From contig NZ_MSIF01000024.1 in NCBI RefSeq assembly GCF_001921215.1, positions 62,001-126,000 of the forward strand: 64,000 bases of DNA. Direction: 5' to 3'. Source of the stretch: Actinophytocola xinjiangensis (GTDB taxonomy: Bacteria; Actinomycetota; Actinomycetes; Mycobacteriales; Pseudonocardiaceae). Below the pieces are notes generated by a model that was given only the letters and a program-made list of their open reading frames with translations, ran no database searches and was not told where the DNA came from. A program made the position numbers and the translations under genes. The stretch's first letter is position 1, and every line of letters starts with the position of its first letter. Shown piece by piece: positions 10,793 through 52,805 of this stretch.

Positions 10793-10963
10793 CGTGTCGA
10801 GTGCCGGGTTTCGGTCAGCGGCGGCGATTGTCCGAATTCTCCCTGGTGGGTGTCCCCGCGGGACGGGGTGGAACGGGCGTCGAGGACGGCTTGAGATCGG
10901 TCGACAGTGGCCTCGAAGCCTGAATACTCTCGCCACGATTCACAATCGGGAGGAGATTCGCCG

Positions 10964-12211: not shown

Positions 12212-12241
12212 CATGGCTCGAACAGTCACCAGGAGGATTTC

Positions 12242-12922: not shown

Positions 12923-12941
12923 CATCCCGGAGGCGGGCGAG

Positions 12942-14575: not shown

Positions 14576-15381
14576 ACCCGCGACTTCGGGAAGCTCTGCT
14601 GGAGGGCACCGACCTGGCCCCGTTCGGCCGTCTGGTCGACGCCCCGGCCGAGGGAATGACCCTGGCGGACGTGCCGGTGGAGCGCCTGCTGGCGACGACC
14701 CTGTCGGCGAAGGTGCTGGTCCTGCGCGGCTACGGCCTGCTCGACGTGCCGGAGCTGGAACGGTACTGCGAGGCGGCCGGCGAGCTGATGCGCTGGGAGT
14801 TCGGCACGATCCTGGACCTGGTCGTCCAGGACGATCCGAAGAACTACCTGTTCGACTCGGGCGATGTCCCGTTCCACTGGGACGGTGCCTGGTCGGAGCG
14901 GGCCCCCAGGTTCTTCCTGTTCCAGTGTGTCCAGGGCTGCGACCCCGGCGCGGGCGGCGAAACCGTGTTCTCCGACGCGACAGCCGTCTACCGCGATGCG
15001 CCGCCGGCCCTGCGTGACCTGTGGGCGCGGACCACGGTGACCTACCGCACCGACCACTTGGCCCACTACGGCGGCACGATGTCCCACCCGGTGCTGGCCG
15101 AGCACCCGACGACGGGCGAGACCACGATCAGGTACGCCGAGCCGCTGGATCCCGCGCAGTACCGCAACCCGCTGTTCCTGACGGTGGAGGGCCCGTCGTC
15201 GGAGGAGGCGGTCCAGGTCATGGCGGAGCTGAGCGAACGCCTGCACGACCCGAGGTACTGCTACGAGCACGCGTGGCGCACGGGAGACATCGTGGTGGCC
15301 GAGAACCACGCCCTGCTGCACGGCCGGAACCGCTTCACCGGTTCGACGAACCGTCACATGCAACGCATCCAGATCATCTGA
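14572..15381 (+). CDS. isnB: Fe(II)/2-oxoglutarate oxygenase (IsnB/PvcB-like, TauD fold)
   Basis: PvcB/IsnB enzymes act on the isonitrile amino acid made by IsnA, usually by oxidative decarboxylation to a vinyl isonitrile. This 269-residue protein has the HxD of the metal triad in PFHWDGAWSE, and the distal His with the 2OG-binding Arg in LLHGRNRFTGSTNRHMQRI. GTG at 14572 overlaps the isnA stop by 4 nt, after GAAGGAG, so translation is coupled. The close fusion with isnA and correct length support the assignment. Whether it performs desaturation-decarboxylation or another oxidation here is unknown. Confidence 0.9.
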   Translation: MNPRLREALLEGTDLAPFGRLVDAPAEGMTLADVPVERLLATTLSAKVLVLRGYGLLDVPELERYCEAAGELMRWEFGTILDLVVQDDPKNYLFDSGDVPFHWDGAWSERAPRFFLFQCVQGCDPGAGGETVFSDATAVYRDAPPALRDLWARTTVTYRTDHLAHYGGTMSHPVLAEHPTTGETTIRYAEPLDPAQYRNPLFLTVEGPSSEEAVQVMAELSERLHDPRYCYEHAWRTGDIVVAENHALLHGRNRFTGSTNRHMQRIQII

Positions 15382-15399
15382 GTGATGGGAGGCGTCACG

Positions 15400-16332
15400 A
15401 TGGTCGACCTTCTTTCTCCCGTGACGAGGTCCGTGCGGGCCTACGCTCACCTGTCGAACATCTATTTCCTGGACTACAACCTGGGCCATCTCCTGGTGGT
15501 GACCCTGCTCCCGGCGGCGGTCGTCACCGACGCGACCACGTGGCCGCTGCTGGTCCTGATGGCCGTCGGCTACTTCCTGATCCACTGCGCGGTCATCGCC
15601 TTCGACGACGTCACCGGTTACCGGGACGGCACTGACGCGAGGAACTATCGGGACAACCCGAGCGCCCTGCGTCGTCTGCGCTGGAAGCCGCTGGTGACCG
15701 GTGAACTGGACCTGCCGCAGGCACTGCGCTTCGCCTGGGGCTGCGTGCTGGTCGGCCTGGCCCTGCTGTTGACCGGCATGCTCGCCGCCCCCCACCATCC
15801 ACTGTGGCTGGTCGTGGTGGCGGTGGCCGGGGTGGCGGTGTCGTTGCAGTACTCGTACGGTCTGAAGTTCAGCCACATCGGCTTCCAGGAACTGGTCCTG
15901 TTCCTGTGGACGGCGGAACTGGTCGTCGTCCCGTTCTGGTCCCTCACCGGCGGCGTGACCCTGACGCTGGTGGTGGAGGGCGCGCTGTTCGCGTTCTGGC
16001 TCATGATGGTGTCGTTCTACTCGAACCTCCGCGATCTGCACACCGACAAGAGCGTGGGAAGGATCAACCTGGCGACCCTGGCCGGGGAACGCGCCTACAT
16101 CGGCATCCTGGGCGTGCTGGCCGTCGCCGACCTGATCGCCGTGGCAGCGTTGGTGGTGGCCGGCGTCGTGCCTCTCCTGCTGGCCGTGGTGCTGGCTCCG
16201 GTCTTCGCCGCCAGGATCGTCCAGTTCCGGGTGGCTGCCCTGCGCCGCAACCCCCTGCTGGGTCGTCTGATCGGCCGCCGCCTGGCGTGGGCCGGAGCCG
16301 CGTTGATGGCCGCCGCCAACGTGATCAACTGA
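15400..16332 (+). CDS. UbiA-family membrane prenyltransferase
   Basis: UbiA enzymes transfer prenyl groups to aromatic acceptors within the membrane. This 310-residue protein has about 8-9 hydrophobic helices and the two Asp-rich diphosphate motifs: AFDDVTGYRDG near residue 70 and SNLRDLHTDKSVGR near residue 210. The first motif is DDxxGxxxD rather than the classic NDxxD. I chose the ATG at 15400 because GGGAGG lies 7 nt upstream; GTG 15382 and ATG 15385 have none. It follows isnB by 18 nt and is co-transcribed. Together with idi it suggests prenylation of the Tyr/Trp-derived isonitrile scaffold. A membrane UbiA in an isnAB operon is unusual: cyanobacterial isonitrile indole pathways use soluble ABBA-type enzymes. 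Confidence 0.88.
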   Translation: MVDLLSPVTRSVRAYAHLSNIYFLDYNLGHLLVVTLLPAAVVTDATTWPLLVLMAVGYFLIHCAVIAFDDVTGYRDGTDARNYRDNPSALRRLRWKPLVTGELDLPQALRFAWGCVLVGLALLLTGMLAAPHHPLWLVVVAVAGVAVSLQYSYGLKFSHIGFQELVLFLWTAELVVVPFWSLTGGVTLTLVVEGALFAFWLMMVSFYSNLRDLHTDKSVGRINLATLAGERAYIGILGVLAVADLIAVAALVVAGVVPLLLAVVLAPVFAARIVQFRVAALRRNPLLGRLIGRRLAWAGAALMAAANVIN

Positions 16333-39545: not shown

Positions 39546-41852
39546 TTATCCAGTCACGGTCTCGCCCGGCGGGACGGTCAGGGTGACGCCGTCGGAGAAG
39601 CGGACGGTCACCTCCTGGGCGCCGACGTTGGCCGCGACGTGGGTCCGGGTGCCGTCCTTGGTGAACACCGCGTGCAGCGGGTGGTCGGCGGTCACGCCGG
39701 TGTCGACGCGGCCGAGAGCGCTCAGACTCCGAATCCAGTGGAACGTGTGGGCCCGGCTCTCGCCCTCCTCCACCGTGTACCCGGGGTTCGCGCGCAAGGC
39801 CGCCAGCGCGGCGTCCGCGTCGGACAGGGCCTGGAACGACCAGATCACGTCGGCCCACGAGCGGGGGACCGCACTGCCGGAGTTGCGCACGATCTCGGCG
39901 ACGTTGCGGTCGACGTAGTCCGGGTCGTGGCCCAGGTACAGCGAACCGCCGGTGATGGGGAGCATGTTGATGCCGTGGATCTTCTCCGGGTCGGCGGTGA
40001 ACCAGGTGGCGTAGGCGCCACCGTCACCCCAGACCATGCCGACGGTGGAGTGTTCGAAGCCGTCGGGGAACGGCTTGTCGGTCCAGTAGTTCTGGATGGC
40101 GCTGGCCTGGGTCGTGTAGATGTAGAGCCCGGCGTCGCGTACCCGCGTGTCGCCGGTGGCCTGGCCCCACTGGATCAGCGCGTTGGCGAAGTTCATCCCC
40201 TCCGACGACGACTCCTGGTTGTTGCCGGCGAAGAACGCGCCGTGTCCGGCCGCCCAGTCGTGGCCGGCGTAGATGTCGAAGTCGCGCAGGAACGGGAACA
40301 TCGGGTCGTCGCGGGTCGGGTTGTTGGCGTCGCGGATCAGCAGGTCGACCATGCCGCCGTACTGGTCGTCGGCGGCCCAGGACGGGTCGAACCTGGCCAG
40401 GGTGGCCGCGGCGGCGATGTAGTAGCCGTAGTGGAAGTGGTGGTCGTTGAGGTCGGTGTCCGAGCCGTAGGATGCCGGGTAGCCGATCAGTGTTCCCCAG
40501 TTCCGGTCGTGGTAGAAGACCCGCTGCGTCTTGCCCTCGCTGGCGGTGAACCAGTCGGTGAGCCGGTCGCGGATCGCGTCGAGCATCGTGTCGCGGACGT
40601 CGGTGCGGCCGACCTGGTCGGCGATCTCGGCCAGCCTCGCCGCCCGGCCCAGTGCCTTGCCGGTCCAGTAGGTGTCGTTGCCGAAGCCCGCGAACGGGTC
40701 ACCCGAGCCGGCATCGTCCAGGTAGCCGTTGAGCGTGGCCCGGTCCTCGTCGGTCAGGCCGGCGGGCGGAAGTTCGGGCAGGACGCCGTTGTAGCGGGTG
40801 TCGGTGGTGAACGAGCCGGTGCCGACGAGAACCTTCAGCGGTCCGCGCGGCGACACGTAGGTCTGCTCGACCGGGGTGCCGCCGGCCAGGTTGTGCCACT
40901 GGTGCGGGTAGAGCGCGACGACCGTGCCGGTCTCGGTGCCCTCCCTGGCCTCGGTGGTCAGCCGGTAGGTGGCCCGCACGACGCTGGCCGACTCGTCGTA
41001 GTCCCAGGACACGGCCGTGCCGGTCAGGTGGGCGTGCGCGTAGCGGCCGTAGGAGTCGGCCAGCGCCGTGCGCTCGGCGTCGGTGCTCGACGGGGTGGTC
41101 GGCAGCACGGCCACCGAGAAGTAGTCCTTGCCGCCCAACGCGCTGGAGATCGCGGTGCCGGCGACCGACCAGGTGGCGCCGGTGGGCGCGTAGGCGACGT
41201 AGTCGTGGCCGTCGACGGTGAAGCCGACCCGGCTGCCGGTGGTGTCCCACACGGTCGGCGCGGCGGTGAGGCTCAACCGCGCGTCGCCGCCGGTGGCGGT
41301 GGCGTACACGAACGGCGAGCCGTGGGCGATGGTGGTGCGCAGGGTGCGGGTGCCGTCGGACCAGTACGGGCTGACGGTCCAGTCGGTCCAGTCGTCGACC
41401 TGGGACTCGGCGGCGCTGAGCCCGGCGACTCCGAGGGTGAAGTCGGCGCCGTACTGGAAGTGGTACTCGCCGACGGTGGTCGGCTCGCCGGTGATGGTGG
41501 GGGTGGTGGCGTAGTCGACGCCCAGGCCGCCGGCGACTGTGTCGAACGAGAACGGGTGGGCCATCAGGTTGTCGGAGAACGCGCACTCGGTGCGCTTGTA
41601 GACCAGCGAGGACCACCAGTCGTTGGTGGGGACCGGGCCGGCGGGGGCGTTGTCGGTCAGGTGCCGGCGCGGGTTGGTCGCCAGGTCGCCGCACGCGGTC
41701 GGCAGGGACGCGCCGGCCGGCAGGGTGGAGGTGTAGCTGCCCGCCCCGACCGGTTCGGCGCCGACCGGCGCGGTGATCAGCAACGGAAGCGCGGTCCCGA
41801 CGAGCGCCGCGACGGCGACGAGGGCCAGGCGTGGGCCGGAGCGATGTCGCAT
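39546..41852 (-). CDS. Secreted endo-1,3-beta-glucanase, GH81
   Basis: Cleaves 1,3-beta-glucan such as fungal cell-wall or callose. The 768-residue protein has a Sec signal (MRHRSGPRLALVAVAALVGT and following), then the GH81 N-terminal beta domain (PTNDWWSSLVYKRTECAFSD), and the catalytic region with DLNDHHFHYGYYIAAAATLA and FAGNNQESSSEGMNFANALI, whose clustered Asp and Glu residues are the family's catalytic signature. Start at ATG 41852, behind AGGAGAGACAC. A CebR-like operator lies at 41905-41918. It is divergent from the LPMO gene, so both may be induced together during fungal or plant polymer degradation. Confidence 0.93.
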   Translation of the reverse strand: MRHRSGPRLALVAVAALVGTALPLLITAPVGAEPVGAGSYTSTLPAGASLPTACGDLATNPRRHLTDNAPAGPVPTNDWWSSLVYKRTECAFSDNLMAHPFSFDTVAGGLGVDYATTPTITGEPTTVGEYHFQYGADFTLGVAGLSAAESQVDDWTDWTVSPYWSDGTRTLRTTIAHGSPFVYATATGGDARLSLTAAPTVWDTTGSRVGFTVDGHDYVAYAPTGATWSVAGTAISSALGGKDYFSVAVLPTTPSSTDAERTALADSYGRYAHAHLTGTAVSWDYDESASVVRATYRLTTEAREGTETGTVVALYPHQWHNLAGGTPVEQTYVSPRGPLKVLVGTGSFTTDTRYNGVLPELPPAGLTDEDRATLNGYLDDAGSGDPFAGFGNDTYWTGKALGRAARLAEIADQVGRTDVRDTMLDAIRDRLTDWFTASEGKTQRVFYHDRNWGTLIGYPASYGSDTDLNDHHFHYGYYIAAAATLARFDPSWAADDQYGGMVDLLIRDANNPTRDDPMFPFLRDFDIYAGHDWAAGHGAFFAGNNQESSSEGMNFANALIQWGQATGDTRVRDAGLYIYTTQASAIQNYWTDKPFPDGFEHSTVGMVWGDGGAYATWFTADPEKIHGINMLPITGGSLYLGHDPDYVDRNVAEIVRNSGSAVPRSWADVIWSFQALSDADAALAALRANPGYTVEEGESRAHTFHWIRSLSALGRVDTGVTADHPLHAVFTKDGTRTHVAANVGAQEVTVRFSDGVTLTVPPGETVTG

Positions 41853-41904
41853 GGCTGTGTCTCTCCTTGTGAGCAGGGTGAACAGGAAGAACCACCGAGG
41901 CCCG

Positions 41905-41918
41905 TGGAAGCGCTCTCA
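41905..41918. promoter_or_regulatory. CebR-like LacI-family operator, GH81 side
   Basis: TGGAAGCGCTCTCA, matching the CebR consensus TGGGAGCGCTCCCA at 12 of 14 positions, 53 bp upstream of the GH81 start. Confidence 0.65.
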
Positions 41919-42104
41919 CGACCTGTCTAGCAGCCGGCTCGCCGGGCGGTCAACCGTCCGAATTGCGGGTCTTGTGCGGTACCGGATCGCCGCGTGGGTG
42001 TGCCGAAGAAGGCCGAGATCATTTTCGATGTGTGCGGAATAGTCCACAACAATTGTTTCCGGAGTCGTTGATGTCCACGTCACGCCGGGATACTCTGAGT
42101 TGAG

Positions 42105-42118
42105 TGGGAGCGCTCCCA
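42105..42118. promoter_or_regulatory. CebR operator, perfect palindrome, LPMO side
   Basis: TGGGAGCGCTCCCA is an exact copy of the CebR operator consensus known from streptomycetes, 44 bp upstream of the LPMO start. The intergenic region 41853-42161 (309 bp) otherwise shows only promoter-type sequence. Confidence 0.8.
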
Positions 42119-42161
42119 GTCGATCAATGAATGATCAGCCGGAAAAGAGAGGCCTCGCCCC

Positions 42162-42821
42162 ATGCGAAAATTCGTCAGCCACAGGCCTGGCGCAAGATCG
42201 CGCAGTGTCCTGACCGTTCTCGTCGCCGCGTTGGCCTGCCTGTTCATCTGGACGCCGACAGCGTCCGCGCACGGCACCATCATCGGCCCGCCGACCCGCG
42301 CCTACCAGTGCTGGGACGACTGGGGCAGCGACCACATGAACCCGAACCTGCCCACGCTCGACCCCATGTGCTCCCAGGCCTTCCAGGCCAACCCGGACAC
42401 CATGTGGAACTGGATGAGCGCCCTGCGGGACGGCCTCAACGGCAACTTCCAGGGCTCGACGCCGGACGGTCAGCTGTGCAGCAACGCCTTGTCCCGCAAC
42501 AACTCCCTCAACCGGGCCGGCGCGTGGAAGACCACCAACATCAGCAACAACTTCTCGATGCACCTGTACGACCAGGCCAACCACGGCACGGACTTCTTCC
42601 GGGTCTACGTCAGCAAGAACGGGTTCAACCCGGCCACCCAGACCCTCGGCTGGGGGAACCTCGACTTCATCACCCAGACCGGTCCCTACCCCCAGGACAA
42701 CAACGTCACGTTCAACGTACAGACCTCCGGTTACACCGGACACCACATCGTCTTCACGATCTGGCAGGCCGCACACCTCGACCAGACCTACATGTGGTGC
42801 AGTGACGTGATCTTCAACTGA
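42162..42821 (+). CDS. Secreted AA10 lytic polysaccharide monooxygenase
   Basis: A copper-dependent enzyme that oxidatively cleaves chitin or cellulose. The 219-residue precursor has a Sec signal ending in PTASA, so the mature protein begins with His37 (HGTIIGPPTRAYQCWDDW), the N-terminal copper-brace residue required by the family. Further conserved parts are MCSQAFQANPDTMWNW, the second brace His region (ANHGTDFFRVYV) and the C-terminal HHIVFTIWQAAHLDQTYMWC. No extra carbohydrate-binding module. A perfect CebR operator precedes it, and a strong hairpin follows the stop. Confidence 0.94.
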   Translation: MRKFVSHRPGARSRSVLTVLVAALACLFIWTPTASAHGTIIGPPTRAYQCWDDWGSDHMNPNLPTLDPMCSQAFQANPDTMWNWMSALRDGLNGNFQGSTPDGQLCSNALSRNNSLNRAGAWKTTNISNNFSMHLYDQANHGTDFFRVYVSKNGFNPATQTLGWGNLDFITQTGPYPQDNNVTFNVQTSGYTGHHIVFTIWQAAHLDQTYMWCSDVIFN

Positions 42822-42896: not shown

Positions 42897-43301
42897 CTAG
42901 ACCGGGCTGCCGCACCGGCGGTCGAGGTTGGCGTCGCTGCTGCACACCTTGACCTGGACGTAGGCCTCCTGGATGAACAGCCAGTGGTCGTCCCAGTCGC
43001 CCTTGCCGCCGGTCACCTCGAAGATCTCGTACTCGGTCAGCGACGTCACCATCCACGCCTCGGCCCGCCGGCCGTCCTTGGCCGTGTCCTCCAGGTACAG
43101 GTCGATGTCCGCCCCGGCCGCCTCGATGCAGATGTCGTAGATCAGGGTCGCGCCCGAGATCGACGTGACGCCCGATCTGCTCCCCGCCCGGCAGGCCTGG
43201 CTCGTGGCGTCCCCGGTGTCGCCCGTCGCCGGGCTGACCACACCCACCAACGCGCCGAGGGCGGCGACACAGGCGATCACGACACGGAATCCGTTACGCA
43301 C
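42897..43301 (-). CDS. Small secreted protein of unknown function
   Basis: A 134-residue protein with a Sec signal (MRNGFRVVIACVAALGALVG and following), then a mature part of about 105 residues with four Cys (SQACRAG, YDICIEA, KVCSSD, RRCGSPV), likely forming two disulfides. The middle alternates short strands (ISGATLIYDICIEAAGADID, then GDWDDHWLFIQEAYVQVKVC). I recognise no family. It is divergent from the SARP gene; the 169-bp region between them contains the SARP-type repeats, so it could also be under SARP control. Confidence 0.75.
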   Translation of the reverse strand: MRNGFRVVIACVAALGALVGVVSPATGDTGDATSQACRAGSRSGVTSISGATLIYDICIEAAGADIDLYLEDTAKDGRRAEAWMVTSLTEYEIFEVTGGKGDWDDHWLFIQEAYVQVKVCSSDANLDRRCGSPV

Positions 43302-43381
43302 GGCAACACCTCACGGGGTTCGGCGGCGGGTGGCGCCCACCGCGACGGCGGTCCCTGGCAGGGAAAGCGTCGCTCGGGGCC

Positions 43382-43414
43382 GTGGCTGGAACGTGGCTGG
43401 AACGTGGTCGGCGG
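43382..43414. promoter_or_regulatory. SARP-type direct repeats upstream of the SARP gene
   Basis: Two perfect tandem copies of the 11-mer GTGGCTGGAAC (43382-43403) followed by a partial third (GTGGTCGGCGG). An 11-bp period with heptamer-like cores is the known binding pattern of SARP regulators. It lies 57 bp before the SARP start, and a near-copy precedes the peptide operon at 49961-49993. Confidence 0.65.
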
Positions 43415-43470
43415 ACCGGTACCGTTGGTGGTGCGCGACGCGCTTGCCGCCACGGGTGCCAGGAGGATGG

Positions 43471-46224
43471 TTGGAGTTCTGGGTGTTGGGCCCGCTCGAG
43501 GTGCGGGACCAGGGCCAGGTGGTGGATCTCGGCGCGCCGAGGGTGCGGCTGGTGTGCGGGCTGTTGCTGGTCCGCCCGGGTGACCTGGTCTCCGTGGAGC
43601 AGTTCGTCGACGAGTTGTGGCCCGACCGGCCGCCGCCGGACGCGCGGGCGCTGGTGCGCGGGTACGTGTCGCGGCTGCGGCGGGTGCTGCGCTCCGGACC
43701 CAGCGGCGAGGACCGGGTGGTGACCCGCAAACCCGGGTACCTGCTGCGGGTCGACGACCAGGAGGTCGACCTGCACCGGTTCGAGCGACTGGTCGCCCTG
43801 GCGCGCACGGCGGTACGCGACGGCGACCCGACCCGCGCCGTCGAGCTGTTCGGCCAGGCCAACCGGCAGTGGCGCGGCGGCCCGTTCGCCGACGTGCCGC
43901 ACACCGCGAGCATCGCGGCGGCGGTGACCTGGCTCGGCGAACGCCGCCTGACCACCCGCGAGGAGGCGTTCGACGCGGCGCTGGCCGCCGGGCAGGCCGC
44001 CCAGGTGGTCACCGAGCTGACCGAGTTCGTCACGGCACACCCGCTGCGCGAGCGCCCGGCCGGCCAGCTGATGCTGGCGCTGTACCGCTGTGGCCGCCAG
44101 GCCGACGCGCTGGAGCGCTACCAGCGGACCCGCCGGGTCCTGGCCGCCGAGGTCGGGGTCGAGCCCGGCGCCGACCTGCGCCGGCTGCACCAGCGGATCC
44201 TCGACGCCGACCAGGACCTGGCCGGCGCGGCCGACGGACCGGTCGCCACCGGGCGGCAACTGCCGATGGACATCGCCGAGTTCACCGGGCGGCAGGCGGA
44301 GCTGGCCGCCCTGCAGGCACTCGCCGCCGGCGGCGAGCGGGAGCTGCCCGGCACGGTGGTGATCTCCGCGATCGAGGGCATGGCCGGGGTCGGCAAGACC
44401 CGCCTGGCCGTGCACCTGGCCCACCGGCTGATCGACCAGGGACGCTACGACGAGGTCCAGCTGTGGACCGACCTGCGCGGTTTCGACGCCGAGCACCCGC
44501 CGGCCGACCCGGCCGACGTCCTGGAGGGGTTCCTGCGGACCCTCGGCGTCCCCGGCGACCGCATCCCGACCGGCGTGGAGTCCCGCGCCGCCCTCTACCG
44601 CGACCGGCTGGTCGACAAACGCGCGCTGATCCTGCTGGACAACGCGGCACGCGAGGACCAGGTCCGCCCGCTGCTGCCCGGCCGGCCGGGCAGCCTGGTG
44701 CTGATCACCAGCCGCCGTGGGCTGTCCGGATTGGACGGTGCGCACGCCGTTCGGCTGGACGTCCTGCCGCCGGCCGACGCGGTCCAGTTGCTGGCCAGGA
44801 TCGCGACCGACGACCGGATCGCCGCCCAGCCGGCGGCCGCGACCAGGGTGGCGCGGCTGTGCGGGCACCTGCCGATCGCGCTGACCCTGGCCGCGCGGCG
44901 GCTGCGGGCCCGGCCGCACTGGACGGTCACCGACCTCGCCGACCGGCTGGCCGGCGACACCGGTGACCAGCACGAGCCACGTGGCCTCGGCGCCACCTTC
45001 GACCTGTCCTACCGGGCGCTGACCGACCCCCAGCGGCAGCTGTTCCGGATGCTGGGCCTGCACGTCGGGACCGACGTGACCGCCGAGTCGGCCGCCGCGC
45101 TGATCGGATCGACCCGCCGCACGACCGAGACCCTGCTGGAGGCCCTGCTCGACGAACACCTGCTGCACCAGGAGGTCGCCGGCCGCTACCGGTTCCACGA
45201 CCTGATCCGCCCCTACGCCCGCCGCCTGGCCGAGGACGAGGAGCCGGCGGGCCGGCGGACGGCGGCGGTGCGCCGGCTGCTCACCTGGTACCTGCACGCC
45301 GCCGAGGCCGCCCGCACCGTCCTGGACCCGCACCGCACCCGGATCATCGACCTGCGCCCGCTCCCACCGGAGTGCGCCGTTCCCATGTTCGATGACTACG
45401 AGCGGGCGTTGGCCTGGTTCGAGGCGGAGCGGGCGAACCTGGTCGCGGTGATCGGGGTGGCGCAACACCACGGCGCGCCCGAGGTGGCCTGGCAGCTGGC
45501 GTGGGTCACGATGAGCCTGTTCTACCGGCGCAGCTACTGGGACGACTGGATCGCCACCTTCCGGATCGGGCTGGCCGCCACCCGGACCAGCGGCCAGCGG
45601 CGGGCCGAGGGCATCATGTGGCGCGGGTTGGGTGTCGCGCACAGCGACCTGCGCCAGTTCGACACGGCGATCGACTGCTACCAGCGGGCGCAGGTCCTGT
45701 TCGAGGAGGTCGGCGACCTGCACGCGCAGGGCTGGAACCTGAACAACCTCGGTGTGCTGCACGTCGACCTGGACAACCTGGCCGCCGCCAGGACCTGTTT
45801 CCAGCGCGCGCTGTCGCTGCTGCGCCAGACCGGCGACCGCCAGGGCGAGGGTTTCTGCCTGAACAACCTGGGCGACACCTGCCGCCGCCTGGGCGCCACC
45901 CAGGCCGCGATCGCCTACCTGGTCGACGCCCTGGGCATCCAGCAGGGCCGGGAGGACCACGTCGGTGAGCAGTTCACCCTCGCCACCCTGGGCGACCTGC
46001 ACCAGGACGCCCACCAGTACGCCTCGGCCATCGACTACTACCACCGCGCGGTCGCCATCAGCCGACGGCTGGACGACCAGCGCATCGCCGCCCGCACCCT
46101 GACCAGCCTGGCCAGGGCCCACCACGCCCTGGGTGACACCGAGGCCGCCGCCGAACACCGGCGGCAGGCCCGCGCCATCTTCACCGACCTCGGCGACCCT
46201 CAGGCCGACGACCTCGACGACTGA
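43471..46224 (+). CDS. SARP/AfsR-family regulator (SARP + NB-ARC + TPR)
   Basis: A 917-residue large SARP. Residues 1-95 are the OmpR-like winged helix (LEFWVLGPLEVRDQGQVVDL, then VVTRKPGYLLRV). The bacterial transcriptional activation domain follows to about 250. An NB-ARC ATPase begins near residue 270 with Walker A EGMAGVGKTRLAVHLAH, then RALILLDNA and LPIALTLAARRL. TPR repeats fill the C-terminal 250 residues (GWNLNNLGVLHVDLDNLAAA, GFCLNNLGDTCRRLG). The TTG at 43471 is chosen because AGGAGG lies 4 nt upstream. Repeats at 43382-43414 suggest autoregulation. Its 3' end overlaps the convergent P450 gene by 25 nt. It is the likely pathway-specific activator of the peptide operon. Confidence 0.93.
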   Translation: MEFWVLGPLEVRDQGQVVDLGAPRVRLVCGLLLVRPGDLVSVEQFVDELWPDRPPPDARALVRGYVSRLRRVLRSGPSGEDRVVTRKPGYLLRVDDQEVDLHRFERLVALARTAVRDGDPTRAVELFGQANRQWRGGPFADVPHTASIAAAVTWLGERRLTTREEAFDAALAAGQAAQVVTELTEFVTAHPLRERPAGQLMLALYRCGRQADALERYQRTRRVLAAEVGVEPGADLRRLHQRILDADQDLAGAADGPVATGRQLPMDIAEFTGRQAELAALQALAAGGERELPGTVVISAIEGMAGVGKTRLAVHLAHRLIDQGRYDEVQLWTDLRGFDAEHPPADPADVLEGFLRTLGVPGDRIPTGVESRAALYRDRLVDKRALILLDNAAREDQVRPLLPGRPGSLVLITSRRGLSGLDGAHAVRLDVLPPADAVQLLARIATDDRIAAQPAAATRVARLCGHLPIALTLAARRLRARPHWTVTDLADRLAGDTGDQHEPRGLGATFDLSYRALTDPQRQLFRMLGLHVGTDVTAESAAALIGSTRRTTETLLEALLDEHLLHQEVAGRYRFHDLIRPYARRLAEDEEPAGRRTAAVRRLLTWYLHAAEAARTVLDPHRTRIIDLRPLPPECAVPMFDDYERALAWFEAERANLVAVIGVAQHHGAPEVAWQLAWVTMSLFYRRSYWDDWIATFRIGLAATRTSGQRRAEGIMWRGLGVAHSDLRQFDTAIDCYQRAQVLFEEVGDLHAQGWNLNNLGVLHVDLDNLAAARTCFQRALSLLRQTGDRQGEGFCLNNLGDTCRRLGATQAAIAYLVDALGIQQGREDHVGEQFTLATLGDLHQDAHQYASAIDYYHRAVAISRRLDDQRIAARTLTSLARAHHALGDTEAAAEHRRQARAIFTDLGDPQADDLDD

Positions 46225-47300
46225 GGGCCGCCGAGGTCGTGTTCGGGCGGCGAGAACACCGCGGTGACGCACGGGGTGTCACCGCGCCGGGTCATCGCCA
46301 CCGCCGGCCGGGCGGCCAGGTTCTCGACCGCCGCGGCCAGCCAGCGCACCTCGAACCGGGCGCCGACGCAGGTCCCCGGTCCGATGGCGAACGGCAGGAA
46401 CGCGTCCGGGCGCCGGCCGGCCCAGCGGTCGGGGTCGAACAGTTCGGGGTCGGTCCACTGGTCGGGGTGGCGGTGCAGGGCGTGCACCGGCACGACGAGT
46501 TCGTCGCCGCGCAGGACGTCGAGGGGGCCGAGGCGGTGGTCGTGCAGGACACCGCGCCGGTGCTGCCAGGCGGGCGGCCACAGGCGCAGGGCCTCCAGGG
46601 CGACGTGCTCGGGGGCGTACTCCCGCGCCGGACGTGGCGGGCGCCGGGCGGCGACGAGGTCACCGGGCCCCAGCAGGCACAGCAACCAGGCCAGCGCCGC
46701 CGAGGACGCGCCGACGAACGCGGTCACCGCGCGCAGGTACACCTCGCCGCGCACCGAGGGGTCCAGGTCCGGAAGTTCGGGGACCGCGCCGGCTCCCACG
46801 GCCGCGCCGGCGCTGTCGGCCAGTCGCCGGAAGGCGGCCGGGTCGGGGCGGCGGGTGCCGGTCACCAGGCCGTGGAACACGGTGTCCAGGAACCGGGTGA
46901 CGGTCACCCGCAGTCCCGGGTCGCGGTCCAGGCCCAGCGGGCCCCGGTGGGCGGTGGCCACGGCGTGCAGACAGGCGCGGTGCAGGTCGCCCCGGGCGGC
47001 CGTGACCGCGTCGACGGCGGTCGCGGCCACCCGGGCGGGGTCCTGCTCGGCGAGCGCGGTGTGCACCCAGCGGTTGAGCGCTGACCGCTGCAGCGCGGGC
47101 AGTGCGACCTCACCCGGGCGCCAGAACGCCGGCACGTCGTCGAGCCGGCCGTCGGTGTCGATCAGCGCGCGCCTGGCGAGCCGAGGTTCGCACACGACCA
47201 CGCTGCCCGCGAGCGTGCGGAACACCGGCCGGCTCGCGCACCGCCGTTGCAGTGCGCGCATTCCCCGCCAGCTCAGTCGCCGCGTCGGACCGAAGGGCAT
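46200..47300 (-). CDS. Short atypical cytochrome P450 of the peptide operon
   Basis: A 366-residue P450, shorter than the usual 400-plus. The haem loop LPFAIGPGTCVGARFEVRWL puts the Cys near residue 311, with Glu at the end as in eukaryote-like P450s. The K-helix ExxR is EALRLWP. The expected I-helix region (AVTAFVGASSAALAWLLCLL) lacks the acid-Thr pair used for O2 protonation, as in some coupling P450s. ATG at 47300 lies 2 nt after the stop of the 31-aa peptide gene, so the pair is translated together. P450s next to short peptides with Tyr/Trp-rich ends crosslink side chains in biarylitides, cittilins and atropopeptides; that is the inferred role here. Confidence 0.88.
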   Translation of the reverse strand: MPFGPTRRLSWRGMRALQRRCASRPVFRTLAGSVVVCEPRLARRALIDTDGRLDDVPAFWRPGEVALPALQRSALNRWVHTALAEQDPARVAATAVDAVTAARGDLHRACLHAVATAHRGPLGLDRDPGLRVTVTRFLDTVFHGLVTGTRRPDPAAFRRLADSAGAAVGAGAVPELPDLDPSVRGEVYLRAVTAFVGASSAALAWLLCLLGPGDLVAARRPPRPAREYAPEHVALEALRLWPPAWQHRRGVLHDHRLGPLDVLRGDELVVPVHALHRHPDQWTDPELFDPDRWAGRRPDAFLPFAIGPGTCVGARFEVRWLAAAVENLAARPAVAMTRRGDTPCVTAVFSPPEHDLGGPQSSRSSA

Positions 47301-47302
47301 GG

Positions 47303-47398
47303 TCAGTAGTAGCTGTAGCCGAACGGCGCCCAGGCCAGCCGCCGGATCCCGCGTTCCATTCCCAGCCGCCGCATGACCGGCCGCATCATTCGTTTCAT
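47303..47398 (-). CDS. 31-aa putative RiPP precursor with C-terminal YSYY core
   Basis: ATG at 47398 is preceded by AGGAGGAG and overlaps the stop of the membrane protease gene (ATGA). The peptide starts with a strongly basic leader (MKRMMRPVMRRLG, then MERGIRR) and ends with an aromatic core WAPFGYSYY before TGA. The last four residues YSYY match the pattern of the cittilin core YIYY, which a P450 crosslinks. The next gene, 2 nt downstream, is a P450. No alternative frame gives a better protein, and the start signal is among the best in this operon. Function as a RiPP precursor is inferred; it could instead be a small regulatory peptide. Confidence 0.72.
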   Translation of the reverse strand: MKRMMRPVMRRLGMERGIRRLAWAPFGYSYY

Positions 47399-48306
47399 CG
47401 AACTCCTCCTTCTTCTTCCTGCCCGGCCGCGACCGGCCGGTGCCCGTTCATCACGTCCAGCCGCGCGGTCAGGTCCCGCGCGACCTGCTCGACCGTCGGG
47501 ACCGGGGCTCCGGCCGGTCGGTCGCGGTGGGCGCTGGTGCGTTCGGTGCGGCCGAGCGCGCGCCACAGCAGGTACTGGGCGGCCATCAGCGGCCCGGCGA
47601 CGAGCATCACCGGGAACGGCCCGGTCAGCACGCCGGCGTCCAGGACGAGCGCGAGCGCGGTGGTCAGCGCCAGTGCGGTGAAGGCGGCGAGCAGGGCGGC
47701 GGCCCGGCCGAACGCCTTGAGCGCGACCAGCGCCCACAGCGTCAGCATGAGCACGTCGCCGAGACCGATCAGCCGGGCGCCGTCGGCGAACACCGGCGCG
47801 AACGGCAGTCCGACGGTCTTGGCCAGCAGCTCGCCCATGGTCGGCAGCATCGTCGTGGCGACCACGTCGTAGCCGGCGAGCAGCACGCCGAACACGGCGA
47901 CGTCCCGCGCCTTGATTCCACTTTGGACATACAGGTTCGTCACGCCGACGACGAGAACCAGCAGCAGCACGTTGTTCCACCAGGGCGTCGCCCCGGCGCC
48001 CACCAGCGCCACGTCGAGCCCGCCGGCGGCCACCGCCACCAGCAGCGCGACCCGCCCGGTGAGCACCGGCGCGAGGGTGAACTGGACCGCGAGCACGGTC
48101 ATCAGTCCGAGTACGGTGGCCACGGCCGCGTCCGGCAACGCCAGGTACAGCACCGGAAGCAGCACGACGACCGCCATCACCACGACGATGTCGCGCACCG
48201 TGTACACCCCGACCGGCGGCCGGTCGACCTCGACGAACCGGAAGTACAGCACGGCCAGCGCGATCGCCACGGCCGGCACGGCGACCAGCACCCAGAATCC
48301 GGTCAT
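47395..48306 (-). CDS. Nine-TM protein with presenilin-like YD and GLGD motifs (putative GxGD intramembrane aspartyl protease)
   Basis: The 303-residue protein has nine predicted hydrophobic helices (about residues 3-24, 37-57, 61-82, 86-105, 109-130, 133-154, 178-199, 202-222 and 228-250) and a hydrophilic basic/acidic tail. TM6 contains GYDVVAT (Tyr146-Asp147) and TM7 starts with GLGDVLM (Gly181 to Asp184). TM9 has GPLM where presenilins have PAL. Nine TMs with YD in TM6 and GxGD in TM7 is the presenilin/signal-peptide-peptidase layout. It overlaps the ligase gene and the 31-aa peptide gene by 4 nt each. It could cleave one of the operon's peptides. The protease call is motif-based and unproven; a plain transporter-like protein is the alternative. 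Confidence 0.7.
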   Translation of the reverse strand: MTGFWVLVAVPAVAIALAVLYFRFVEVDRPPVGVYTVRDIVVVMAVVVLLPVLYLALPDAAVATVLGLMTVLAVQFTLAPVLTGRVALLVAVAAGGLDVALVGAGATPWWNNVLLLVLVVGVTNLYVQSGIKARDVAVFGVLLAGYDVVATTMLPTMGELLAKTVGLPFAPVFADGARLIGLGDVLMLTLWALVALKAFGRAAALLAAFTALALTTALALVLDAGVLTGPFPVMLVAGPLMAAQYLLWRALGRTERTSAHRDRPAGAPVPTVEQVARDLTARLDVMNGHRPVAAGQEEEGGVR

Positions 48307-49751
48307 CGCGCGAACTCCGTCCTGGGCGCGGCCGTGTCGGCGAACCGCAGCTCCCGCAGGTCCGCGCGCACCGGCTGGGTCGCCGGCATGGTGGCCAGTT
48401 CGGTGTGCGCGACGACCCCGGCCAGCGGCAGGCCGGCGGCGAGGGCGCGTTCGTGGGTCCGTTCCGCGACCCCGTCCCGGTCGGCCAGCAGGTGCAGGAC
48501 CAGGCCGTCGGAGGTCTCGACGGTCGCGAACCGTGACGGGAGCACGGCGTCCGGGTCGTCCTCGACGACCTCCAGGATCTCGCGCGGGGTCACCACCCGG
48601 CCCTCGATCTCCCGCAGGTGCTGGAGCTTGCCGAGAACCCTGGTCGTGGCGGGCAGCGCGGCCAGGTCGCAGTCGAGGCCGGTCAGCGGGCGCACCACGT
48701 CGCCACTGAACAGCCGCAGCAGCAACGTGGTCTCCCGGTACGGGTGCACCGGGGTGAAGGTGAGCACCCCGAGCTCACCCGGTTCGGCGGGCCGGGTTCC
48801 GGTGCGGTCGAGCACCTCGGTGATGCCCTGCTCGGGGTTGAGGTGCAGGTGCCGCGCGGCGCAGACCTGCGCGCCGCCCGGCGAGATCTCGGTCATCCCG
48901 TAGGTCTCCACGACGGTCGCGCCGAAGAGTCGTTCCGCCCGCCGGCGCAGGCCGTCGGTGAGGATCTCGCCGCCGCACATGATCGTGCGCAGGCCGAAGT
49001 CGCCGGCGTCGTGGCCCAGCCGCTCGGCGGTCGACACGAGCAGGCCGAGATAGCTGGGATAGGTGGACAGCAGGGTGGGCCGGGGTCGGCGGCCGGCGAG
49101 CGGGGCGCTGCCGGACAGCCGCGCGAGCGCCACCTCCGGGGCCACCAGGCCGACCGAGTTCGCGGTGGCGCCGACCATCGCGGTGGCGTTGAGGACGCAG
49201 TGGATCCCGAACACCGCGCGGGAGCTGAGGTTGAGCTGGACGACGTCGTCGGTGCCGAGATCGAAGTCGATCAGCAGGGAGACCGCGGTCATCGCGCTGA
49301 ACAGGTCGGCCTCGTAGCGGGAGAACCACACGGCGGTCGGTGCGCCGGTGGTGCCGGTGGTCTCCGCGCGGTACCACGGGCGGACCCGCTGGTCGACGAA
49401 CGCCTCCGGCAGGTCGCGCAGCGCCTCCTTCGGCGTCACCGGCAGTGTGTCCATAGTGGACAGCGTGATGTCCTCGGGCCGGAGTCCGGCGCGGTCGAGG
49501 TGCTGGCGGTAGAAGACGGTGTTGTCGTAGGCGGCGCGCATCACCCGGCGCAGCCGCCGCTCGTCGATCGGCCGGCGCGCGTCCTGGTCCAGCGCCCGGC
49601 CGCGAAAGGCCGCCAGATCACCGATTCCGCCGAACTCGGCGCGAGTGGCGAGGATGCTGGCGACGATCCGCTCGAAGTCCGCGATCCGCACGCGGCTGCC
49701 GAACACCAGTGACAGGCCGTGCCGCAGTTGGGCCAGTGCTGTCCCGAGCAC
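48303..49751 (-). CDS. PaaK/CapK-like adenylate-forming ligase
   Basis: A 482-residue phenylacetate-CoA-ligase-type protein. It has the early PaaK helix (AAYDNTVFYRQHLDRAGLRP), the adenylation P-loop RAETTGTTGAPTAVWFS, the motif GGEILTDGLRRRAERLFGAT, VETYGMTEIS, and the C-terminal lid LFSGDVVRPLTGL followed by GRVVTPREILEVVEDD. Such enzymes activate an aryl or acyl acid as adenylate and pass it to CoA or a nucleophile. GTG 49751 follows CTGGAGGAAC. It ends in a 4-nt overlap with the TM protease gene. There is no carrier protein nearby, so it may acylate a peptide or activate a small acid; the substrate is unknown. Confidence 0.87.
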   Translation of the reverse strand: MLGTALAQLRHGLSLVFGSRVRIADFERIVASILATRAEFGGIGDLAAFRGRALDQDARRPIDERRLRRVMRAAYDNTVFYRQHLDRAGLRPEDITLSTMDTLPVTPKEALRDLPEAFVDQRVRPWYRAETTGTTGAPTAVWFSRYEADLFSAMTAVSLLIDFDLGTDDVVQLNLSSRAVFGIHCVLNATAMVGATANSVGLVAPEVALARLSGSAPLAGRRPRPTLLSTYPSYLGLLVSTAERLGHDAGDFGLRTIMCGGEILTDGLRRRAERLFGATVVETYGMTEISPGGAQVCAARHLHLNPEQGITEVLDRTGTRPAEPGELGVLTFTPVHPYRETTLLLRLFSGDVVRPLTGLDCDLAALPATTRVLGKLQHLREIEGRVVTPREILEVVEDDPDAVLPSRFATVETSDGLVLHLLADRDGVAERTHERALAAGLPLAGVVAHTELATMPATQPVRADLRELRFADTAAPRTEFAR

Positions 49752-49775
49752 AGTTCCTCCAGGGGGAGGGCCGGA

Positions 49776-49799
49776 CGCCCCGGCGACCAGGCCGGGGCG
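49776..49799 (-). terminator. Hairpin between the 26-aa peptide gene and the ligase gene
   Basis: Stem CGCCCCGG / CCGGGGCG of 8 bp with an 8-nt loop, located 15 nt after the peptide stop. It fits an attenuator that makes the peptide transcript more abundant than the downstream genes, as in many bacteriocin operons. Confidence 0.55.
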
Positions 49800-49813
49800 C
49801 CGAACCCGTCGGG

Positions 49814-49894
49814 TCAGACGATGCAGACGGAGAACGCGACCGCGGTGATGGCGCCGAGCGCGTACTTGGCGTAGCCGAGCGTGGCCTTGATCAT
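49814..49894 (-). CDS. 26-aa hydrophobic peptide, first gene of the peptide operon
   Basis: ATG at 49894 follows AAGGGAG by about 7 nt. The peptide begins MIKATLGYAKYALGA and ends AVAFSVCIV before TGA; apart from two Lys it is almost entirely hydrophobic, enough for one membrane helix, with a single Cys near the end. All codons have G/C in third position, as in real genes here. SARP-type repeats lie 67 bp upstream and a hairpin follows. It may be a bacteriocin-like or signal peptide, a second precursor, or a substrate of the operon's GxGD protease. No homologue is known to me. Confidence 0.65.
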   Translation of the reverse strand: MIKATLGYAKYALGAITAVAFSVCIV

Positions 49895-49960: not shown

Positions 49961-49993
49961 GTGGACGAAAGATGGCTGAAACGTGGTTGGTCA
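49961..49993. promoter_or_regulatory. SARP-type direct repeats upstream of the peptide operon
   Basis: Three 11-bp units: GTGGACGAAAG, ATGGCTGAAAC, GTGGTTGGTCA. The central part GCTGAAACGTGG differs at one base from GCTGGAACGTGG upstream of the SARP gene. Located 67-99 bp before the 26-aa peptide start, just after the LuxR stop. Confidence 0.62.
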
Positions 49994-52717
49994 CGGGCCG
50001 GTGTCGAGGAGGCCGAGAGCGGCCAGTTCGGACCGGGCGCCGACCCCGAGTTTGGGAAAGGCCTTGTACAGGTGGTAACCGACCGTGCGCGGACTGAGGT
50101 ACAGCTGCGCCGCGATGTCCCGATTGGACAGTCCACGCGCGGCCAGCCGGACGATCGTGCGTTCCTGCGGGGTGAGGACCGCCAGCACCGGGTCACCGGC
50201 CGGCTCCCGGACGGACTCGCCGGTGGCGTCGAGCTCGGTGCGGGCGCGGTGCGCCCACGGAACGGCTCCCAGACGGTGAAAGGTCTCGTGCGCGTCACGC
50301 AGCTGGGTCCGCGCCCGCGCCCGGCGGCGGGCGCGGCGCAGCCACTCACCGTGCAGCAGCGCGGTCCTGGCGCGGTCGAACGGGCGGTCGGCCGGGTGCA
50401 GCGCCAACGCCGCCTCGTAGTGGGCCCCGGGGTCCTGTCCGAGCAGGGCCCGGCAGCGGTGGACCAGCGCGTCGATCCACGGCTGGTTCGCGTGCCCGGC
50501 CCACACCTCCAGCCTGGCCAGCGGCCCCGCGGCCTCGTCGGGCCGACCGAGCCGCACGGCCGCCTCCACCAGGTCGGGGATGCTGCGCGGGCCGGGCAGC
50601 TGGTGGGCGACCGGGCCGGTGTGCAGCGCGGTGAGCCGGGCCAGGGCGGACTCCCACTGCCCGCTGCCCAGGTCCAGCAACGCCAGCGACCACTGGGCCC
50701 AGGACAGCCCTGGCGCCGGCACCCCGGGGTCCGGCGCGGCCAGCGCGTCCTCGGCGTGCGCCTGGCAGCGGTGCTCGTCGCCGGCCAGCGCCGCCAGATA
50801 GGCCAGCACACCGCTGATCTCGGCGATCCACTGCCGGTGGCCGAGCTCCCTGGCCAGGTGCAGGGCCTGACCGGCCTCGTCCTGGGCGTCGGCGTGCCGG
50901 CCGAGGAACGCCGAGGACCGGGCGACACAGGCCAGCACGGGCGGGGTGCGGCCGATCCAGCCGTTGTCCCGGCACCGGCCAAGCAGCTCCTCTGCCACCC
51001 GGTGCGCCTCGGTGTCCGCGCCGGCGGCCTGCAGGCTGGTGGCGCCGACCAGGATCGTGTCGTGCGGGCCGCCGAAGCCGGTGCGCCGGGCGTCGGCCAG
51101 CCGCTCGGCGAGGCTGGCCGCCTCCGGCCGGCCGGAGGCGGCGTTGGCGACCCAGGTCAGCAGGGCGGCGACGTGGGTGAGCGGGTCGCCAGGCGGCAGC
51201 GGCAGTGCGGCCAGCCGGCCGGTGGTCTCGGCCAGGTCGGGCTCGCCCAGGTACCAGGCGGCGTGCACGGCGTCGAGCAGCAGGTGGGTGGCCAGCGGCA
51301 GGTCGCCGGCCAGCGCCGCCGCCTCGGTCAGCAGCCGGCGGGCGGTGCGCAGCGAACCCCGGTGGAAGGCGGCGGTGGCCCGGACCCGGCCGGCGCGCAC
51401 GGTCAGACCGGGGTCGTCGGTGTGGCCCGCGCTCGCCCCGGCCAGGCTGGCCATGCGGTCGACGTCGCCCTCCTCGGCGGCCGACTCCGCCGCCAGGACC
51501 AGCCGTCGGGCCAGGTCGTGGCCGGCCGGGGTCAGCTGGGCGGCCCGCTCGTAGGCGGCCGACGCGGCGGCGTACCCGCTGCGCGCGCCGGCCCGCGCGG
51601 CCGTGCGTTCCAGCTCGACGGCCACCGCCTCGTCCGGGCCGGTGGCCACCACGGCGTGGTGCCAGGCGCGCCGGTCGGCGTCCCGCGGCTGGTCCAGGGC
51701 GTCGGCCAGCGCGGTGTGCACCACCAGCCGCAGGCTGACCGGCGCCGCCTGGTGGACCGCCGAGCGCACCAGCGGGTGGCGGAACCGCACGGTGCGGCTG
51801 TCCACCCCGACCAGGCCGGCGGCCTCGGCCGGCACCAGGTCCGCCGGCCCACAGCCCAGGGTCGCGGCCGCGCGCAGCACCACGCCCCGGTCGCCGGTGT
51901 CCTCGGCGGCGGCGACCAGCAACAGGCGCTGGGTCGGCTCGGGCAGCCGCCGGACCTGGTCGAGGAACGCGGCCCGCACGGTGTCGGTCATCGGCAGCAC
52001 GTCACCGGCCGGGCGTTCGGTGCCCAGCGCGGCCGGCAGTTCGAGCAGGGCCAGCGGGTTGCCCCGGGCCTGGGCCAGCACCCGGTGCCGGTCGGCCGGC
52101 GAGAGCGCGCCGGCGTGCTCGGCCAGCAACTCGGCCGCGGCCGGGTCGTCGAGCCCGGTCAGCGCCAGCCGGGGCAGGCCGGGCGCGACGAATCCGGTCC
52201 GGGCGCCGACGACCAGCGCGATGCCCTCGGCGTCGAAGCGCCGCGCGGCGAACAGCAGCGCCTCGGTCGAGGCCCGGTCGAGCCACTGCGCGTCGTCGAC
52301 CACACACAGCACGCGGCCGCCGCCGGCGTACTCGGCCAGCAGCGACAGCACGGCGAGCCCGACGAGCATCCGGTCGCCCGGCTCGGCCCGCGCCAGCCCG
52401 AACGCCCCGCGCAGTGCCCTGGCCTGCGGGTCGGGCAGGGCGTCGGTGTGCTCGATGGCCGGTCGCAGCAGCAGGTGCAGGCCGGCGAAGGGCAGGTGCG
52501 CCTCGGACTCGATGCCGGTGCCGTGCAGGACCCGCGCGCCGCGGGCCGCCGCCACCGCGTACTCCAGCAGCGCGGTCTTGCCGATGCCGGGCTCGCCGGT
52601 GACCAGCAGGCTCCCGCTGCGGCCGGTCCGGCACTCGTCGAGCAGCTGGTCGAGGACCGCCCGCTCCTGATCCCGCCCGCGCAACACCCGGCGACAGTAC
52701 TGAAGCCGACCGGGCAT
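49991..52717 (-). CDS. LAL-type LuxR-family regulator
   Basis: A 908-residue large ATP-binding LuxR regulator. Walker A is near residue 45 (LLVTGEPGIGKTALLEYAVA) and Walker B is in GGRVLCVVDDAQWLDR. A long TPR-like helical middle follows. The C-terminal 65 residues are the LuxR HTH (LTPQERTIVRLAARGLSNRD, then IAAQLYLSPRTVGYHL). ATG 52717 is chosen; GTG 52720 and internal GTG starts are possible. Its stop lies just upstream of the peptide operon promoter and it is co-oriented with it, so it may be a second regulator of that cluster. It is divergent from the vat-vgb operon with about 90 bp between, so it could control that operon instead. Confidence 0.9.
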   Translation of the reverse strand: MPGRLQYCRRVLRGRDQERAVLDQLLDECRTGRSGSLLVTGEPGIGKTALLEYAVAAARGARVLHGTGIESEAHLPFAGLHLLLRPAIEHTDALPDPQARALRGAFGLARAEPGDRMLVGLAVLSLLAEYAGGGRVLCVVDDAQWLDRASTEALLFAARRFDAEGIALVVGARTGFVAPGLPRLALTGLDDPAAAELLAEHAGALSPADRHRVLAQARGNPLALLELPAALGTERPAGDVLPMTDTVRAAFLDQVRRLPEPTQRLLLVAAAEDTGDRGVVLRAAATLGCGPADLVPAEAAGLVGVDSRTVRFRHPLVRSAVHQAAPVSLRLVVHTALADALDQPRDADRRAWHHAVVATGPDEAVAVELERTAARAGARSGYAAASAAYERAAQLTPAGHDLARRLVLAAESAAEEGDVDRMASLAGASAGHTDDPGLTVRAGRVRATAAFHRGSLRTARRLLTEAAALAGDLPLATHLLLDAVHAAWYLGEPDLAETTGRLAALPLPPGDPLTHVAALLTWVANAASGRPEAASLAERLADARRTGFGGPHDTILVGATSLQAAGADTEAHRVAEELLGRCRDNGWIGRTPPVLACVARSSAFLGRHADAQDEAGQALHLARELGHRQWIAEISGVLAYLAALAGDEHRCQAHAEDALAAPDPGVPAPGLSWAQWSLALLDLGSGQWESALARLTALHTGPVAHQLPGPRSIPDLVEAAVRLGRPDEAAGPLARLEVWAGHANQPWIDALVHRCRALLGQDPGAHYEAALALHPADRPFDRARTALLHGEWLRRARRRARARTQLRDAHETFHRLGAVPWAHRARTELDATGESVREPAGDPVLAVLTPQERTIVRLAARGLSNRDIAAQLYLSPRTVGYHLYKAFPKLGVGARSELAALGLLDTGP

Positions 52718-52805
52718 CACCGGACGGAAGTACCTGGTTGTGACAGATTCCGCATCGTCTCGCCGGCCGTAGCGTGGTCGTACGCACCGTCACCAGGAGG
52801 TACCT

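Follow-up and report, generated by a model that had tools for sequence, protein, structure and literature searches.

A stretch of 64,000 nucleotides (nt) from the 9.5 Mb genome of the soil actinomycete Actinophytocola xinjiangensis (contig NZ_MSIF01000024.1, positions 62,001 to 126,000, forward strand), referred to here as the window, carries a compact run of five genes on its minus strand at 46200–49894 (window numbering is used throughout). These five genes are two modules, not one pathway. Module 1 comprises a tiny hydrophobic peptide (pep26), a ligase of the PaaK family and a membrane protein with a predicted presenilin/signal peptide peptidase (SPP) fold. Module 2 comprises a second tiny peptide (pep31) and a cytochrome P450. 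A preliminary description of this DNA had proposed a single pathway to a ribosomally synthesized and post-translationally modified peptide (RiPP), in which a leader protease and a ligase serve the P450 peptide. This is not borne out by the distribution of the genes, because the trio of peptide, ligase and membrane protein recurs, each time with its own pep26 homologue, in 19 other loci.

Organization of the five-gene operon

The genes are transcribed in the order pep26, ligase, membrane protein, pep31 and P450, with a spacer after the first. The pep26 gene (49814–49894) has an ATG start codon preceded by a Shine–Dalgarno-like site (GAAGGGAG) and encodes a peptide of 26 residues, MIKATLGYAKYALGAITAVAFSVCIV, which is the candidate substrate of module 1. 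Beyond a GC-rich spacer of 62 nt (49752–49813), the gene for the 482-residue ligase (48303–49751, GTG start) overlaps by 4 nt that for the 303-residue membrane protein (47395–48306), which in turn overlaps by 4 nt the pep31 gene (47303–47398; Shine–Dalgarno sequence GAAGGAGGAG). The latter encodes a basic peptide of 31 residues, MKRMMRPVMRRLGMERGIRRLAWAPFGYSYY, a candidate RiPP precursor, and is separated by 2 nt from the gene for the 366-residue P450 (46200–47300). The packing claimed in the preliminary description is thus confirmed, and the tight overlaps suggest co-expression. The hairpin that had been noted in the spacer is also present (minimum free energy −37.1) and is a possible attenuator, but its stability is not unusual given its base composition (z −1.71). 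Both tiny peptides stand out beyond chance, pep26 by its rank in a profile search and pep31 by a homologue in a second genome (see below). Scans of Pfam and NCBIfam gave no match for pep26, pep31 or the membrane protein.

Distribution and linkage of the trio

The membrane protein is rare, being found in six of 397 genomes of the order, and the ligase at E < 1e-50 is limited to the same six; a seventh ligase match (genome G028, E 4.9e-26) is a weaker PaaK match. When an alignment of the membrane protein was scanned against the genome contigs of 84,980 species, with one genome per species, at least 18 loci were recovered, a lower bound because a single peptide pattern was used. Fifteen of these lie in Actinomycetota (Streptomyces, Actinacidiphila, Kitasatospora, Actinomadura, Labedaea, Rugosimonospora, Virgisporangium, Nakamurella and others) and three in metagenome-assembled genomes (Anaerolineales, Chloroflexi and Thermomicrobiales). 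Together with the window and locus L016 they make 20 distinct loci, L015, L017, L018 and L019 being repeats of four of the 18. The ligase gene adjoins that of the membrane protein in 18/18 scan loci, and in 20/20 when the window and L016 are counted. Neither ligase nor peptide had any part in the scan query, and this linkage is therefore not built in. Searches of plasmids gave no match to the membrane protein and one partial match to the P450.

Clustering of the neighbouring genes of the 18 loci and the window revealed no further widely shared gene besides a cupredoxin-like one; three other groups are each common to 3 to 5 loci. The cupredoxin-like gene precedes the tiny peptide in eight of the 18 loci (L038, L039 and L041–L046), and also in L016. 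Its product carries a motif of the TC..HPxM type, with weak Pfam support (best E 1.4e-4), and is possibly a fourth component of one trio subgroup.

The tiny peptides of the trio loci are coding genes

A pep26 homologue of 22–31 residues, preceded by a Shine–Dalgarno-like site, is located near the ligase/membrane protein pair in all 20 distinct loci. It lies upstream of the ligase in 16/18 scan loci, as it does in the window and L016, and directly after the membrane protein in L037. Two copies are present in L030, where they are on the opposite strand, and two in L034, while L047 (Nakamurella silvestris) has three diverged copies within about 6730–8757 of that locus, two of them ahead of the ligase and the third between it and the protease; such duplication is often seen for precursor genes. 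An approximate consensus is [KR]Y..(GS)(ST)LTA..F; the N-terminal end is basic, the tail of 4–8 residues varies, and the hydrophobic core (RYxxGSLTAVLF type) is conserved more than this tail. The peptides are cationic, with one acidic residue in total across 22 of them.

When a profile was trained only on the peptides of other loci, pep26 came first (E 1.8e-7) out of the window's 1082 stop-to-stop frames. A leave-group-out version of this test, applied to 19 loci with L016 excluded, placed the peptide above all other frames of its locus in 18 cases (E 9e-9 to 0.58). Furthermore, synonymous change exceeds non-synonymous change both in five Streptomycetaceae loci (proportions pS 0.21 and pN 0.07) and in six loci of the cupredoxin subgroup (pS 0.49, pN 0.21), in counts that leave out L039 and L046. 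On the strength of the profile ranks and the synonymous excess, the tiny peptides of the trio loci are coding genes. The spacers that follow them were also compared, and eight of the 17 equivalent spacers tested, the window's among the 17, have hairpins with z < −3.

The membrane protein is predicted to adopt a presenilin/SPP fold

An AlphaFold2 model of the membrane protein, built with 19 sequences, has a mean predicted local distance difference test score (pLDDT) of 88.2 and a predicted template-modelling score (pTM) of 0.85. It comprises nine helices of at least 17 residues, two shorter helices and a β-hairpin directly before the helix that carries the GxGD motif (GLGD, residues 181–184). 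Residues Y146–D147 are invariant in 19/19 members and GxGD is present in all 18 full-length members, the L039 protein being cut short and hence outside this count. In a Foldseek search with 154 matches, ranks 1–19 are all human γ-secretase chains, archaeal PSH or human SPPL2a, each with a probability of 1.00, and at rank 20 the probability falls to 0.13. Chain B of the matched γ-secretase entries is presumably presenilin 1. The preliminary description of a nine-transmembrane, GxGD-type protease relative is upheld by the model, the Foldseek matches and the YD/GxGD motifs, and can be made more precise as the presenilin/SPP family. The protein is thus a candidate intramembrane protease. Kinship with prepilin peptidases was also considered and set aside, with no such title among the 50 listed of the 154 Foldseek matches.

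The protein shares with PSH (MCMJR1), PSEN1 and SPP/SPPL2a (family A22) the nine-helix fold, the YD and GxGD motifs and a conserved proline near the last helices; P232 and G238–P239 are conserved in the family alignment, in which a literal PAL before the last helix is absent. It differs from them in being bacterial, in its 11–19% fold-alignment identity, in having no exact PAL motif, and in being accompanied at every locus seen by a PaaK-like ligase and a 22–31-residue peptide. To our knowledge the GxGD proteases of bacteria are the prepilin peptidases, and we take a reference title on bacterial polytopic aspartyl proteases, cited in the literature on prokaryotic presenilin-type proteins, to mean these enzymes. 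The prokaryotic presenilin-type members discussed in the available parts of PMC2947513 and PMC9263693 are archaeal, and in the former archaeal PSH likewise has no obvious PAL motif.

The ligase has a PaaK-like fold

The AlphaFold2 model of the ligase (pLDDT 88.9) has PaaK1 and BT_0428, a Bacteroides acyl-CoA ligase, as its nearest folds in the Protein Data Bank (PDB). ClxA, NatL2 and AjiA1, which we take to be aryl-acid ligases of natural-product pathways, stand further down the list. The window ligase matches Pfam AMP-binding at 54.5 bits, 17/19 members of the family match this domain, and T131, G133, G136, T287, E288 and D351, which presumably belong to the adenylating core, are invariant in 19/19. 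Fold and AMP-binding core, shared with PaaK ligases, NatL2, AjiA1 and ClxA alike, agree with the PaaK-like identity assigned earlier. Unlike PaaK ligases, the protein falls far below the NCBIfam equivalog cut-offs for PaaK phenylacetate-CoA ligase (108 versus 700 bits and 84.2 versus 646.3 bits), has a longer N-terminus (PDB sequence matches start at residue 56 or later) and has a constant membrane partner.

The pep31–P450 module

As had been described, pep31 ends in YSYY, with a tryptophan as the ninth residue from its end, and its gene lies immediately before that of the P450. The latter protein matches Pfam p450 at 57.6 bits and has the heme motif FAIGPGTCVG. The I-helix acid–alcohol pair, which we take to be the usual P450 motif, is missing from it, as from the P450 of L027 and the first P450 of L028.

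A search of 180 genomes of the family with a three-row P450 profile reached locus L050 in G034, another Pseudonocardiaceae genome and the sole representative of its genus in the set compared. There, a peptide ending in YTYY, MRRLIRPVMRRLGVERGVRRLAWNPQYTYY, is encoded 3 nt before a P450; the peptide is 71% and the P450 68% identical to its counterpart in the window. The aromatic C-terminus, whose conservation the preliminary description had set as a test, is therefore kept (YSYY/YTYY) at the sole homologous bicistron found. No match to the membrane protein was found in the G034 genome, and no significant match to ligase or pep26 in the 19 kb around the pair. At E 1e-18, single-sequence searches with the P450 reached three other genomes among the order's 397, and at E 1e-17 none beyond its own genome among 346 of the phylum; the three-row profile yielded more within the family.

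The neighbours of P450 genes were inspected at 22 loci, namely the window, L027 and 20 of the 24 profile-search loci (L057, L061, L064 and L066 lie outside this panel, as do L003 and L008 of the seven other loci in the organism's own genome). At 17/22 the P450 gene adjoins one for a tiny peptide whose C-terminal stretch is rich in aromatic residues, as judged by eye. The peptide ends are of the types YxYY, YSxxYG, YRWY(L/V)YHHI, RWxW, GFYTYWISTN, GRYVWYH and GWVIDCEIY, and in L060 the peptide gene overlaps the P450 end. Five other P450s of the organism's own genome were examined as well, and no tiny aromatic peptide lies beside any of them. In a tree of 27 P450 rows, the window and L050 pair together (100/100) within a 15-row half (split 97/95) that holds 14 tiny-peptide P450s and L053, and the five own-genome P450s fall in the other half. 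The expected clustering with peptide-crosslinking P450s is thus seen in part: the window P450 groups with P450s beside tiny peptides, but none of those grouped is characterised and CitB is not among the rows. To judge from sequence, the pep31–P450 bicistron seems to be a new P450-RiPP system akin to the cittilins, and by analogy the P450 probably crosslinks the tyrosine-rich pep31.

Two further peptide groups were seen in the same panel. Similar 29-residue peptides ending in YRWY(L/V)YHHI are encoded directly after the P450 in L048, L049, L051, L052 and L054. In L048, L052 and L054 the peptide is followed by another P450, which makes this group a candidate two-P450 RiPP family. In L056, L058, L059 and L060, peptides of 19–21 residues ending in RWxW-type motifs are encoded beside P450s.

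Two modules and the alternatives

The L050 pair occurs in G034 without the membrane protein or a nearby ligase, so that the conserved YxYY end and its P450 live without module 1. The flanks of the 19 other trio loci (up to about 9 kb, some shorter) contain no YxYY peptide, and such P450 matches as they do contain are weak and incomplete (L040 the best, at E 4e-5). What stands of the cittilin-like RiPP in the preliminary description is the YxYY–P450 pair; protease and ligase as its parts do not. We lean, with somewhat better than even confidence, towards two peptide-maturation modules joined head to tail, in which pep26 would be cut and then modified by the ligase, and pep31 would be crosslinked. 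The tight packing of the five genes, and the position of the protease gene directly before pep31, would also suit an integrated P450-RiPP pathway in which pep31 is the common substrate of ligase, presenilin-like protease and P450, with pep26 as an accessory or signal peptide. That is unlikely, since each half occurs without the other (the trio in 19 other loci, to judge from the flanks compared, and YxYY–P450 in G034), since the constant partner of ligase and protease is pep26 and not pep31, and since pep31 is basic and not membrane-like. The protease might in addition release the product of the P450, but the distribution gives this no support.

Two other roles for the tiny peptide of module 1 were weighed. 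Its strict linkage to the ligase/protease pair, and the greater conservation of its hydrophobic core than of its tail, could mean that it is a subunit or membrane anchor of one of these enzymes, like small accessory transmembrane proteins. Two or three diverging copies in three loci argue against this, as do the varying position (before the ligase, after the protease or on the opposite strand), which is that of precursors, and a length of 22–31 residues without any other domain, and we regard such a role as quite unlikely. The multiple copies would instead fit a membrane-toxin system, in which a cationic peptide disturbs membranes, the presenilin-like protein clears it and the ligase detoxifies or tunes it; the hairpin after many peptide genes, and a size and composition reportedly like those of small membrane toxins, point the same way. 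Such a system leaves the constant adenylating ligase unexplained; 8/18 loci also have a cupredoxin-like gene. We regard it as very doubtful.

Several observations weigh against the two-module reading or its parts. We infer both the cutting and the modification of pep26 from sequence. The L031 peptide was missed by the leave-out profile, several of the recovered peptides reached only E 0.1–0.6, and the hairpin after the window's own pep26 is non-significant. For the membrane protein, the Foldseek matches have moderate E-values (1.4e-4 at best and ≤0.001 for six of them), with template-modelling scores by query length of 0.48–0.63 and 11–19% identity over ranks 1–19; the family profile, searched against PDB sequences, found no presenilin and as its sole match an unrelated chain (E 1.8), and Pfam Presenilin matches one of the 19 members (E 0.033). 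For module 2, the YxYY end rests on two loci, and at five of the 22 P450 loci (L053, L065, L067, L070 and L071) there is no tiny aromatic peptide, a short frame with a GTG start and a terminal W, next to the L065 P450, being scored as none. L027 and L048 both sat in the P450 profile and so give no independent support, and the tiny-peptide P450s of L063, L068 and L069 fall in the other half of the tree with the own-genome P450s.

A model for the two modules

In module 1, pep26 would enter the membrane in the manner of a stand-alone signal peptide, with its basic N-terminus inside and a short hydrophobic stretch, and the presenilin/SPP-like protease may cut it within the membrane. The PaaK-like ligase would adenylate a carboxylic acid, whether an aryl or acyl acid or the C-terminus newly formed on the peptide itself, and cap the peptide with the activated acid or join it to or through the peptide. 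The resulting small, modified hydrophobic peptide might then leave the cell as a pheromone-like signal or bioactive compound. The enterococcal sex pheromones reportedly arise in a related way, as short hydrophobic peptides from signal-peptide-like precursors that are cut in the membrane by Eep, a site-2 protease. The route proposed for pep26 is alike in these respects, but there the protease is of family M50 and here A22-like, the pep26 precursor is a free-standing gene and a ligase is present. In module 2, a helical, basic leader in pep31 would precede a C-terminal core, YSYY, whose tyrosine rings the P450 would crosslink as in cittilins, and some protease would then release the crosslinked core.

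Comparison with known peptide pathways

The P450 half appears to be a novel example of an established kind. The core of the cittilins of Myxococcus xanthus (CitA/CitB) is said to be YIYY, and they too have a precursor of about 30 residues with a C-terminal YxYY core beside one P450. According to PMC8708641, the cittilin precursor has 27 residues, CitB makes a bridged tetrapeptide and the cluster includes a methyltransferase gene. In contrast, the present operon is from an actinomycete, has no methyltransferase among its five genes and is fused to a second peptide module. The atropopeptides (tryptorubin family) resemble module 2 in their short basic leader, aromatic core, single P450 and two-gene unit. 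They differ from it in that pep31 contains none of KSLK, RSLK, ESLK, KSRK, KPLK and PSLK, the KSLK-type motif being the defining leader motif of that family in PMC11450843. The tryptophan at position 2 of their six-residue core is also absent from the last six residues of pep31 (FGYSYY), a point that a longer core would leave open. Biarylitides have a five-residue precursor, MxYxH, unlike the 31-residue one here.

The trio fits no described kind known to us. In the open-access PubMed Central literature, with subscription journals outside this scope, neither the trio nor a RiPP pathway that uses a presenilin-type protease was found mentioned, and four peptide fragments searched there gave no match; a review of RiPP proteases (PMC10885120) has no match for presenilin, aspartyl, aspartic or GxGD. 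It may be, at a little under an even chance, that the trio represents a new class of bacterial ribosomal peptides, with a presenilin-family protease, a dedicated substrate of 22–31 residues and a modifying PaaK-type ligase, in Actinomycetota and Chloroflexota, and here fused to a cittilin-like P450 pathway. Presenilin-family proteases are studied owing to Alzheimer's disease, and a bacterial protein with the presenilin fold, linked genetically to a single tiny peptide, would be a minimal natural enzyme–substrate pair that is directly testable. If ligase and protease do act on the peptide, they would constitute a new route to a small natural product or signal. From the P450 half come an actinomycete precursor of the YxYY type and further tiny-peptide P450 groups.

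Neighbouring genes and other features of the window

Upstream of pep26, on the same strand, lies a gene for a LuxR-type (LAL) protein (49991–52720; AAA_16 and GerE domains), a candidate regulator of the operon. The convergent neighbour beyond the P450 gene encodes a SARP-type regulator (43165–46224, plus strand, start codon provisional) with matches to BTAD, NB-ARC and TPR domains, and a protein 34% identical to it adjoins the L050 pair too. Elsewhere in the window, a P450, a further open reading frame, a NUDIX protein, a PvcA/DIT1-type isonitrile synthase and a UbiA prenyltransferase are encoded in a row at 10907–16332 on the plus strand, which looks like an isonitrile and prenyl natural-product cluster. 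The region 2778–7994 (plus strand) encodes a predicted protein of 1738 residues with no Pfam match at E 0.001. At 39546–42821, a gene for a protein with a GH81 C-terminal domain adjoins, in divergent orientation, an LPMO_10 gene.

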